DNA from: Phormidium tanganyikae FI6-MK23
GTDB lineage: Bacteria; Cyanobacteriota; Cyanobacteriia; Leptolyngbyales; Leptolyngbyaceae
DNA length: 64,000 nt
Direction of reading: 5' to 3'
NCBI GenBank assembly: GCA_019359175.1
Contig: JAHHHU010000002.1
Location: 248,001 to 312,000 of the forward strand
The notes below the pieces were generated by a model. It worked only from the letters and a program-made list of their open reading frames with translations, was not told the DNA's origin and did not search any database. The position numbers and the translations under genes were made by a program. How positions within the stretch are numbered: the stretch's first letter is position 1; each line of letters begins with the position of its first letter. This document shows, piece after piece, positions 39,504 through 43,318 of this stretch.

Positions 39504-41495
39504 ATGAGCGTGAATTATCAGAACCTACTCATTCTGACTGCCAGCATCCTACTGGTTTCTCTATTGTTCGATCGCTGGTGGCGGGAACGAGTTTACGACC
39601 TGCAAGGTAAAATTGTCCTGATTACAGGCGGCTCACGCGGGTTGGGGTTAGTGATGGCGCGTCAGCTTATTGCGTCAGGCGCACGATTGGCGATTTGTGC
39701 GCGAGATCAAGCCGAACTTCAGCGAGCGCAAACAGAGTTAGAGCAACGGGGCGGGGAGGTTTTGGCGTTAACCTGTGATGTTACCGATCAAACGCAAGTC
39801 GAGCAAATGATCCAGCAGGTAAACGATCGCTTCGGCTCGATCGACATTCTGATCAACAATGCCGGAACTGATATTATCAGCCCGCTAGAAAACCTCACGA
39901 TGCAGGACTATGATGACCTGATGAAGCTGCATTTCTGGGCATCGCTCTACACCAGTTATGCTGTTCTTCCAGGAATGCAAGCGCGTAAAGCAGGGCGGAT
40001 TGTTAACGTTTCCTCGATCGGGGGCAAAATCGCATCGCCGCACATGGTCGCATACTGTGCGAGTAAATTCGCACTGGTAGGACTCTCGGAAGGAATGCGA
40101 ACAGAACTGGCAAAAGATGGAATCGCAGTGACAACGGTTTGCCCCGGATTTATTCGCACTGGAGTTGTCGATCACGGGATTATTAAAGGTCAGAACCGCA
40201 AAGAGTTCGCTTGGTTTAGCATTGGTGACTCGTTGCCGATTGTTTCAGCTAGTGCAGAAAAAGTTGCTCGATCGACGATTGCGGCACTCCGTCGAGGTCA
40301 AGCTGAAGTGATTGTGCCGTTTCCAACCTGGCTATCTGTGAAACTGTACGCCTTGTCGCCAGCATTGATGACGAATGTGCTGAGTGTCGTGAATTTGCTT
40401 CTACCGAAACCAGGTGGAATTGGCACAGAGAGAGCATTCGGCAAAGATAGTCATTCTAAATGGGTGCCTTCTTGGTTCACTGCTTTAAGCGATCGTGCAG
40501 CGCGTCGAAACAATGAGATCCCAGTTACAGAACCAAAAAGTACAACTACCGTTCAGCCGATCGAATCCGAAGTGCGATCGCAAAAACAGCTTGAACCCGA
40601 TCAAGGGAAAGCCCCCATTTCTGAGAACAATTCAGATAGTTTTGCGATCGTTGATCCTGCTAAAGCTTCTCCAGAAGTTCAAGCTTGCTTAAGTGAGATT
40701 CAAGATACGTTAGGCATTCCTTGGACACCTGCAAACTGGCGTGCTTATGCGATCTATCCTTCAGTGATGCAATTGTTTTGGAAACGGCTCAAACCTGCGA
40801 CGCAAACCGAAGCTTTTTTGGAATCTGCGATCGCCATTACCGAGCAAGTCTATCGCGACATTGATGACTGGTATCAGCCGAACTATCAAATCGAAGTCGA
40901 TGCTGGACAACAACGCCAAATTCGACGGGAACTGAATGCGTTTAGTTTTGGTAATCCTCAATTGCTGATTCAACAAATCGCATTAAGCCGCACGCTAGCG
41001 GGTGAAGTCGTTGGCGAAGATGGTAAAGCAGACCTGCGGCGCGGTCCTAATGCCTATCGTCATCCAGAAATTCAAATGATTTCTGAACAGTCAGTTAGAG
41101 AAATTTCGGCAGAAATGCAGCAGATCTATCAAGATATTCAGCAAACTTTGGGAGTCCCGATCGTTAATTCTGATTATCAAGCTCTTGCCCGCTGGTCTGC
41201 TTTCTTTATCGCTGCTTGGGAAGATATCAAACTTTGGCGCGATCGACCCGAATATCATCTGCTAAAACAGTCGATCGTGCAAAGAGCGAATAATGCTGCA
41301 AGTCGGCTTCATCCTGCGGTGTTTGTTGGAGAACAAGAAGTTCGCGATCTGCTCGACAATCCCGAAGACTTTGAGCAACTTCAGCAGAGGGTGCAACTGT
41401 TCACAGACATTTTGCCAGAACTGATTATTCAAAATGCTCTGTTTCACATGGGATTAGCAGGCATTCAACCCGCGACTCTGACTGATAAAGCCTAA
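39504..41495 (+). CDS. Membrane-anchored SDR fused to a DehI-type dehalogenase domain
   Basis: A 663-residue two-domain protein. Residues 7-22 form a single membrane anchor. Residues 34-300 are a classical short-chain dehydrogenase: TGGSRGLG (41-48), NNAG (118-121), catalytic Ser170/171, Tyr184 and Lys188. After a charged linker (about 330-375), residues about 378-655 resemble the DehI-type 2-haloacid dehalogenase domain, built of two repeats with matching openings: SPEVQACLSEIQDTLGIPW and SAEMQQIYQDIQQTLGVPIV. The linked reactions might process a hydroxy or halo acid, but no substrate can be named. The gene follows two remnants and precedes another SDR 26 bases on, suggesting an operon in an accessory patch. 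Confidence 0.82.
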   Translation: MSVNYQNLLILTASILLVSLLFDRWWRERVYDLQGKIVLITGGSRGLGLVMARQLIASGARLAICARDQAELQRAQTELEQRGGEVLALTCDVTDQTQVEQMIQQVNDRFGSIDILINNAGTDIISPLENLTMQDYDDLMKLHFWASLYTSYAVLPGMQARKAGRIVNVSSIGGKIASPHMVAYCASKFALVGLSEGMRTELAKDGIAVTTVCPGFIRTGVVDHGIIKGQNRKEFAWFSIGDSLPIVSASAEKVARSTIAALRRGQAEVIVPFPTWLSVKLYALSPALMTNVLSVVNLLLPKPGGIGTERAFGKDSHSKWVPSWFTALSDRAARRNNEIPVTEPKSTTTVQPIESEVRSQKQLEPDQGKAPISENNSDSFAIVDPAKASPEVQACLSEIQDTLGIPWTPANWRAYAIYPSVMQLFWKRLKPATQTEAFLESAIAITEQVYRDIDDWYQPNYQIEVDAGQQRQIRRELNAFSFGNPQLLIQQIALSRTLAGEVVGEDGKADLRRGPNAYRHPEIQMISEQSVREISAEMQQIYQDIQQTLGVPIVNSDYQALARWSAFFIAAWEDIKLWRDRPEYHLLKQSIVQRANNAASRLHPAVFVGEQEVRDLLDNPEDFEQLQQRVQLFTDILPELIIQNALFHMGLAGIQPATLTDKA

Positions 41496-41521: not shown

Positions 41522-42310
41522 ATGGTTTCTACCCAATCTCAACCCTCTTCAACTGCATCGAAGTTAATGCAAGACCGCGTTGTTTTAATCACGGGCGCAA
41601 GTCGTGGAATTGGTGCAGCGACAGCGGCTTTGCTCGGACAACATGGGGCAGCAGTTGGTGTGAACTACTACAACAGTGAAACAGCAGCTCAGGAAGTTGT
41701 CGAAACAATTACTGCTAGTGGCGGACGGGCGCTTGCAGTTCAGGCAGACGTGCGAAACGTGCAGCAAGTGAATGCAATGGTGCAGCAAGTTGAAGAAGCA
41801 TTTGGCGCGATCGATACTTTGGTAATCAACGCGAATGCCCATTTCCCGATTCTGCCGTTTGTGGCATACGGATGGGAGGACTTTGAAGCGAAATTGCTCG
41901 GAGAACTGAAAGGGGCATTCTTTCCCTGCAAAGCTGTTGTACCGTCGATGATCGAAAATAGACGTGGATGTATTATTGCGGTGAGCAGTGGATTATCGCG
42001 CGATCCAGGACGAGGATTTATTGCTCACAGCACTGCGAAATCTGGACTCGATGCCTTCATCAAAAGTTTGGCGCTGGAACTCGGCTCGTATGGAATTCGT
42101 GCGAATGTGGTTTCACCTGGTCTTACTCTGACTGAGGCAACCGCACAATTGCCGCAACAACAGAAAGACGCTGCCGCTCAAAGTGTGCCATTAAAGCGAA
42201 ATGGACTCCCGGAAGATGTGGCAGGAGCAATTTTACTATTGGCATCTGAGCAAGCGAACTTTATCACGGGGGCTTATTTACCTGTGAGCGGCGGTTCTCA
42301 AATGCTTTAA
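41522..42310 (+). CDS. Short-chain dehydrogenase with His in place of the catalytic Tyr
   Basis: A 262-residue FabG-like SDR with nucleotide-binding TGASRGIG (24-31) and AVQADVRN. The NNAG motif reads INANA (102-106). The active-site region is SSGLSRDPGRGFIAHSTAKS: Ser155/156 and Lys173 are kept, but the usual Tyr of YxxxK is His169. The C-terminal region (GLPEDVAGAILLLASEQANF, then ITGAYLPVSGG) is typical. Activity is therefore uncertain: it may use another acid, or be a binding subunit for the SDR-DehI protein upstream. Its end overlaps the convergent membrane-protein gene by 33 bases. Confidence 0.88.
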   Translation: MVSTQSQPSSTASKLMQDRVVLITGASRGIGAATAALLGQHGAAVGVNYYNSETAAQEVVETITASGGRALAVQADVRNVQQVNAMVQQVEEAFGAIDTLVINANAHFPILPFVAYGWEDFEAKLLGELKGAFFPCKAVVPSMIENRRGCIIAVSSGLSRDPGRGFIAHSTAKSGLDAFIKSLALELGSYGIRANVVSPGLTLTEATAQLPQQQKDAAAQSVPLKRNGLPEDVAGAILLLASEQANFITGAYLPVSGGSQML

Positions 42311-43318
42311 CTCTGTTGGTGGCAACACACGAACTCGGTGTTCAAACCAGAGTCCTGCCGCGATCGCACTTATTCCACACGCTCCGAAAATCAGCAATCT
42401 CAGCGGCGAATCGATCTCATATTCCAGCAGGCGACTTAGAATCTGCACGCTCAAGAACATTACGCTAAACCAAAAAGCGTGTCGTTCTCCAGTTTTCAAG
42501 CTATCTCGCAGAGTCACGATCGACAAAATAACTAACATGGCATTAAACACGAGCGGGGCAAAAATCGGAATTGGCTGAACCTGCAGATGCCAAAAATTGA
42601 CGATCGTACTCACGCTGATCATTATTCCGATCATTACTGTTTTCAGTTGCGGTGTCTGAATCAATAGATAAATCCATTGTCCGATCGCAATTGCTGACAA
42701 AATTGCCACACTCGGAAGCGATCGCCATTCTAAGATTCTGCTATACCAAGCAAGATCGCCCCAAACCCAATGGAACGACATCCAGTAAAACAATCCGCCT
42801 AAATACAGCACTGCCAATCGTCGCGCGATCGGTTGAAACAATTTTTCTCGTTGCCCGATCGTCCAAAGCGTATCGTCATACGACCACAGCAGCGCAGCCG
42901 GGAGAATCAGCAACAGAGACGGTAGAATGCTTCCTTTGGTGACGATCTCAGCAAGGCTACTGAGCAAAGCTGAACAAACTGCGATCGCGTTTAGCAAAAA
43001 TAGTTTCTGAGACCGACACCGATACGCCAGCGGCAGAAATAAAATTGCAGCGACGATCGGCATTTGAAGCGCGATCGAATCAATGATTGATAAATGACGA
43101 CCTAGATAAATTTGATTCCATCCGCTCCAATATCCCAATCCGAGCAGCACGATCGCCAACATTCCTAAAGAGGCGAGGCGGAGTCGATAAGCGATCGCGA
43201 GTCCTCCAAGCCCCAACAGAAAAAAGATGGAATGAATCTCAGGAACCATGAACGACTGATGAGAAGACGGAAAATACGGAATTATTTCCAGACTCTCACA
43301 TCTAATTTCAGTATTCAT
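42278..43318 (-). CDS. Polytopic membrane protein of unknown function
   Basis: A 346-residue protein with about ten hydrophobic segments (for example IFFLLGLGGLAIAYRL, LGMLAIVLLGLGYW, LLLILPAALLWSYDD, FAPLVFNAMLVILSIVTLRD). The C-terminal part, with GERHAFWFSVMFLSVQILSR and a final two-helix hairpin, is reminiscent of DUF2157-type membrane proteins, but I cannot assign it firmly. A start further in (MVPEIHSIFF) is possible. It is convergent with the His-variant SDR and overlaps its end. Confidence 0.6.
   Translation of the reverse strand: MNTEIRCESLEIIPYFPSSHQSFMVPEIHSIFFLLGLGGLAIAYRLRLASLGMLAIVLLGLGYWSGWNQIYLGRHLSIIDSIALQMPIVAAILFLPLAYRCRSQKLFLLNAIAVCSALLSSLAEIVTKGSILPSLLLILPAALLWSYDDTLWTIGQREKLFQPIARRLAVLYLGGLFYWMSFHWVWGDLAWYSRILEWRSLPSVAILSAIAIGQWIYLLIQTPQLKTVMIGIMISVSTIVNFWHLQVQPIPIFAPLVFNAMLVILSIVTLRDSLKTGERHAFWFSVMFLSVQILSRLLEYEIDSPLRLLIFGACGISAIAAGLWFEHRVRVLPPTELKHLRTAAHR

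Follow-up and report, generated by a model that had tools for sequence, protein, structure and literature searches.

A predicted membrane-anchored SDR fused to a DehI-type domain in Phormidium tanganyikae and other cyanobacteria

The window considered here is a stretch of 64,000 nucleotides from Phormidium tanganyikae FI6-MK23, and it contains a single open reading frame that encodes an anchor, an SDR and a DehI-type domain in one chain (Table 1). The same start and the same fused frame were found again in nine other cyanobacterial genomes, and the fusion is thus neither a chance event nor a frame error. This anatomy, with a complete SDR and a two-repeat DehI domain, was the core of the original prediction and is confirmed by hydropathy, Pfam, phmmer, AlphaFold and the ten genomes together. 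The architecture had also been held to be undescribed. A literature search, mostly of freely available papers, found no description of it; as far as searched, two known families are paired here in a new way.

Table 1. Positions of the fusion gene, its parts, its neighbors and related loci (window numbering unless a locus is named)
Feature	Position	Strand	Length or basis
Fusion gene: TM anchor, SDR, linker, DehI domain	39504..41495	+	663 aa
N-terminal transmembrane helix, residues 8-26, then RWWRER	39525..39581	+	hydropathy; position conserved in homologues
SDR Rossmann domain, residues 36-222	39609..40169	+	Pfam, motifs
Second hydrophobic segment, residues 282-300, SDR C-terminus	40347..40403	+	hydropathy, inference
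Polar, variable linker, SDR to DehI	40521..40634	+	alignment
DehI-type domain, two repeats, residues 378-663, HadD fold	40635..41492	+	Pfam, phmmer, AlphaFold
Trp407 = DehI Trp34 / HadD Trp48	40722..40724	+	alignment
Asn484 = DehI Asn114 / HadD Asn131	40953..40955	+	alignment
Leu487, at DehI Tyr117 / HadD Tyr134	40962..40964	+	alignment
Asn555-Ser556-Asp557 = HadD Asn203-Ser204-Asp205	41166..41174	+	alignment
Phe633 = HadD Phe281	41400..41402	+	alignment
SDR2, FabG-like, co-directional downstream of the fusion	41522..42310	+	262 aa; Pfam, alignment
Hydrophobic protein, no Pfam match	42278..43318	-	346 aa
Cluster C1 example, L041	6434-6823		
Cluster C1 example, L054	6078-6497		
Cluster C1 example, L058	5084-5479		
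SDR-less anchored DehI, L055	3677-4792		370 aa
SDR-less anchored DehI, L061	3758-4813		351 aa
G282 nonsense codon TAA, in linker, L037	1331		
G282 nonsense codon TAG, at DehI start, L037	1492		
Stand-alone DehI relative, Chloroflexota, L083	1144-2034		
Operon-like row with unfused SDR, G497, L107	6926-10941		

The highest hydrophobicity in the protein falls at residues 8–26 (mean hydropathy 1.70), with RWWRER at residues 24–29. Positive residues flanking a transmembrane helix mark its cytoplasmic side (the positive-inside rule), which suggests an N-out anchor with the enzyme parts in the cytoplasm. The second hydrophobic segment, at the C-terminus of the SDR, is a possible membrane-lying helix.

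The adh_short match (E 3.6e-58) carries the motifs of a classical SDR: TGGSRGLG at residues 41–48 (TGxxxGxG), NNAG at 118, the Ser within SSIGG, and YCASK at 184–188 (YxxxK). These are shared with 3-oxoacyl reductases and (3R)-hydroxyacyl-CoA dehydrogenase (3tfo, 2et6), which, unlike the window protein, have neither the N-terminal anchor nor the C-terminal DehI domain. Alignment places His143 at the site of the tetrad Asn, a residue that is not strictly required. This site holds Asn in 3tfo and likewise His in the (3R)-hydroxyacyl-CoA dehydrogenase 2et6, and His143 therefore does not exclude SDR activity. One Arg lies within the glycine motif and another follows strand 2 (CARD). By established rules, Arg at those sites is typical of NADP(H)-preferring classical SDRs, which suggests NADP(H) rather than NAD as the cofactor; its motifs make the domain most likely a carbonyl reductase or alcohol dehydrogenase that uses NADP(H).

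Downstream of the linker, the Pfam DehI model (PF10778) matches residues 406–558 (E 4.5e-50; 170 bits vs. a cut-off of 28.9), a span that covers only part of the domain. In phmmer comparisons against the PDB both repeats were matched, to HadD (5gzy, E 4.6e-22) and to DehI (3bjx, 7e-14). An AlphaFold model of residues 378–663, computed from an alignment of 34 sequences, reached a pLDDT of 93 and a pTM of 0.92, and its best Foldseek match was 5gzx (E 1.9e-15). VIA-align gave Z 36.3 to lactate-bound HadD 5gzy (rmsd 1.7 Å over 271 aligned residues) and Z 31.6 to 3bjx, with the next unrelated structures at Z 4.6. The structural match to DehI anticipated by the original prediction was thus found, and for residues 378–663 the modeled DehI fold can be taken as settled. 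The score above the Pfam cut-off and the two-repeat, all-helical fold place the domain in the PF10778 family. A full-length model built from eight sequences (pLDDT 42) was set aside, and statements about fold refer to residues 378–663.

Two structurally known enzymes provide the main points of comparison. HadD of Pseudomonas putida AJ1 (5gzx, 5gzy) has the same whole two-repeat fold at ~26% identity but is not fused to an anchored SDR, while DehI of P. putida PP3 (3bjx), from the group I DL-2-haloacid dehalogenases, shares the fold but is a stand-alone soluble enzyme rather than an anchored fusion. Twelve pocket residues have been given for DehI PP3 (PMC3546658). The plasmid pYS1 protein served as the residue ruler, as its Trp34, Ala36, Phe37, Asn114, Tyr117, Ala187, Ser188 and Asp189 stand at the DehI PP3 numbers. 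The window protein has equivalents of HadD Trp48, Asn131, Asn203, Ser204, Asp205, Phe281, Leu285 (Leu637) and Leu288 (Leu640), and of DehI Trp34, Asn114, Ser188 (Ser556) and Asp189 (Asp557); in place of DehI Ala187 it has Asn, as does HadD. In HadD, Asn131 helps the Asp to activate water, Asn203-Ser204-Asp205 function in carboxylate binding and water activation, and Phe281 has a proposed role in halide stabilization (PMC5780510). The catalytic Asp and Asn of DehI, whose presence had been in question, therefore have counterparts in D557 and N484, and N555-S556 corresponds to the D-specific substrate clamp.

Three pocket sites are altered: Pro409 replaces Ala36/Gly50, Ala410 replaces Phe37/Val51, and Leu487 replaces Tyr117/Tyr134 (DehI/HadD). 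Tyr117/134, like Trp34/48, is strictly conserved in characterized enzymes, and the Y134F form of HadD is almost inactive; substitution of Gly50 costs 95% (PMC5780510). In the 34-row alignment, Leu occupies the Tyr134 site in all 12 cyanobacterial members and in the nearest Chloroflexota relatives, whereas HadD-like proteobacterial and actinobacterial proteins retain Tyr. Group I 2-haloacid dehalogenases are recognized by Asp189/205 and Asn114/131 together with Tyr117/134 and Trp34/48, and of these only the Tyr is missing here. Judged by alignment, the water-activating residues are intact, whereas one of those on which haloacid turnover depends has been replaced throughout. For this reason the domain is filed with the DehI sequence and fold family and not as a 2-haloacid dehalogenase. 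The 2-haloacid substrate originally proposed is accordingly unsupported, with Leu for the essential Tyr throughout the family and Pro at Gly50/Ala36, and the substrate is probably something other than 2-chloropropionate. The alternative given in the original prediction, that the DehI-like domain takes other substrates, may apply.

Given what the Y134F and Gly50 changes do to HadD, the domain might even be catalytically dead. It could then bind a carboxylated ligand, such as a fatty acid or metabolite, and recruit or regulate the SDR at the membrane. Such a binding module fits with the absence of the essential Tyr from every member and with the Ser-Pro that replaces the Asn-Ser clamp in one member, L034. 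It also fits with the state of L083, a close stand-alone relative from the Chloroflexota, in which Ala stands for the catalytic Asn and Glu for the catalytic Asp, and whose function has likely changed. However, Asn484 and Asp557 are present without exception in the 12 aligned cyanobacterial proteins, those that have no SDR among them, and the anchored DehI domains that lack an SDR are still constrained; a mere binding role is thus unlikely.

Fusions of this kind have a patchy distribution. When 84,980 species genomes were scanned with a query alignment that included HadD, 21 DehI loci were obtained, and 7 of the 388 genomes of the class have a PF10778 match above the cut-off. The scan and a taxonomic search together recovered intact, full-length fusions from 10 cyanobacterial genomes of several families, several of them MAGs. 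In addition to the window, these are L034 (G061), Phormidium tenue FACHB-886 (L052), Mojavia pulchra (L053), Scytonema hyalinum (L054), Tolypothrix campylonemoides (L056), Leptolyngbya FACHB-321 (L057), Nostoc desertorum (L058), Spirirestis rafaelensis (L059) and UBA11371 (L060). In the phyla of the Chloroflexota, Actinomycetota and Pseudomonadota centers, DehI exceeds the cut-off in 11 of 301, 6 of 296 and 3 of 398 genomes, respectively, and all of these matches are stand-alone, with no SDR in the same chain. Some have long open frames (up to 524 aa), but their upstream portions have no similarity to SDRs and look like high-GC read-through. No relative was found in the viral contigs searched, and the plasmids searched held only distant, stand-alone DehI.

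Both halves of the fusion are under purifying selection. Among the pairs computed, dN/dS ranges from 0.04 to 0.11 for the SDR and from 0.08 to 0.18 for the DehI domain, with many pairs near synonymous saturation; the cleanest pair, L054/L056 (dS 0.2), gives 0.10 in both domains.

The cyanobacterial DehI domains form one clade (support 100/100), and the stand-alone Chloroflexota proteins L083 and L063 branch next. These are the closest DehI relatives found (47% and 41% identity) and have Pro and Leu at two of the altered pocket sites, as does the window domain, although they have no anchor and no SDR. Unfused, anchored SDRs also exist in five genomes of cyanobacteria and relatives (L106–L110; 47–62% identity). 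They share the anchor, SDR and C-terminal motif of the fusion but have no DehI domain and other neighbors, and they group (97/98) apart from the fused SDRs, so that a single fusion event suffices. Most simply, then, the fusion arose once in cyanobacteria. From the reach of the unfused group into other lineages of the phylum, we infer that an older anchored SDR was joined to a DehI domain; a rooting of the SDR tree on distant SDRs is unreliable due to long branches.

Separation has also occurred in the other direction. In FACHB-63 (L055) and a Nostocales MAG (L061), the SDR has been lost precisely in frame while the anchor and the DehI domain, with its catalytic residues, have been kept. The junctions differ and the two copies branch separately in the tree, and the SDR was therefore lost twice, independently. 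No other close SDR orthologue was found in either genome. Measured against fourfold sites, amino-acid change in their DehI domains has not risen significantly since the SDR was lost and shows no clear relaxation; with their frames open as well, a view of these copies as pseudogenes is unsupported.

Elsewhere the fusion is decaying. For example, G282, a one-contig assembly, has two nonsense codons in an otherwise conserved copy. L062 is truncated by an early stop and L065 contains three stops, although both are MAGs in which assembly errors are possible, and remnants of the fusion occur in L064 and L047. This patchy spread and decay in several genomes indicate that the function is dispensable. 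Together with the patchy distribution, the stop codons, truncated copies and deletions seen in five genomes could also mean that two independent activities were joined by chance and are being lost lineage by lineage. Such a neutral fusion is very improbable in light of 10 intact copies over several families and dN/dS near 0.1 in both domains.

The same separations bear on the proposal, made in the original prediction, that 2-hydroxyacids formed from 2-haloacids by the DehI domain are oxidized by the fused SDR to 2-keto acids, with the intermediate channeled at the membrane. The DehI fold, the Asn/Asp pair, the Asn-Ser clamp and the Phe are all retained, and both halves reside in one chain under purifying selection, which speaks for this route. 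The pocket, with Leu and Pro at the Tyr134 and Gly50 equivalents, is nevertheless ill-matched to the first step, and the second is at odds with Arg residues of the NADP(H) type and with the rarity of 2-hydroxyacid oxidation among SDRs. Moreover, each domain is also kept on its own, the anchored DehI in two lineages that have lost the SDR and the unfused anchored SDR in five genomes. Obligate channeling is unlikely on these grounds and on that of dispensability, and the haloacid route as a whole, weakened in both of its steps, seems improbable.

The neighbor genes of the fusion vary among genomes. In the window, SDR2 begins 26 bases past the fusion stop codon. Its catalytic Tyr is replaced by His169, its NNAG motif reads NANA, and Glu occupies the Asn site; these substitutions are invariant across four genomes and also present in G009, and SDR2 is a candidate SDR pseudoenzyme. 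Beside family members, SDR2 is intact in L054, L061 and G282, and the copies in L052, L053 and L065 are degraded; G009 carries it in the absence of the fusion, adjacent to a gene whose sequence gives the impression of a nitroreductase. Aldo/keto reductase genes are found at the fusion or close to it in three loci (L053, L060, G282), and one unfused SDR, in G497, belongs to an operon-like row of thiolase, FabG-like SDR, alpha/beta hydrolase and SDR. These neighbors weakly suggest carbonyl or lipid-acid metabolism. The neighborhoods of the Chloroflexota DehI relatives have nothing in common. Two proteins without Pfam matches were also observed: a small polar protein (cluster C1), encoded at six loci on the opposite strand beyond the downstream end of the fusion, and a hydrophobic protein encoded on the minus strand of the window, where its gene shares ~30 bases with the end of SDR2.

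The explanation that we favor, at somewhat better than even confidence, is that an NADP(H) oxidoreductase tethered to the membrane is combined with a DehI-type hydrolase whose specificity has changed, the two having separable activities on carbonyl compounds or 2-substituted acids. The protein would be a double enzyme at the cytoplasmic face of the membrane, its anchored SDR joined to a hydrolase whose nearest relatives found are the stand-alone Chloroflexota proteins. By analogy with HadD, the DehI domain most likely functions as a hydrolase: Asn555/Ser556 would hold a carboxylate substrate, and Asp557, with help from Asn484, would activate water for an inverting attack on C2. Both predicted activities would be co-located at the membrane, perhaps acting on related lipid-derived or electrophilic carbonyl compounds and 2-substituted acids, and need not be obligately coupled.

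A more specific idea, offered tentatively, is that the DehI fold was recruited through fusion to the anchored oxidoreductase and became a membrane-bound hydrolase of a natural 2-substituted or lipid-derived acid, either non-halogenated or naturally halogenated, with Leu for Tyr reflecting a new specificity. DehI enzymes are familiar mostly from pollutant degraders and the breakdown of man-made haloacids. If recruitment is correct, a physiological role would be gained for this family, here in the form of a conserved, anchored DehI of cyanobacteria, of which several are, judging by their names, soil or desert strains. The natural one-domain versions and the fusions would provide a ready-made set of proteins with which the natural role of the fold, and the effect of tethering by an SDR, may be approached.
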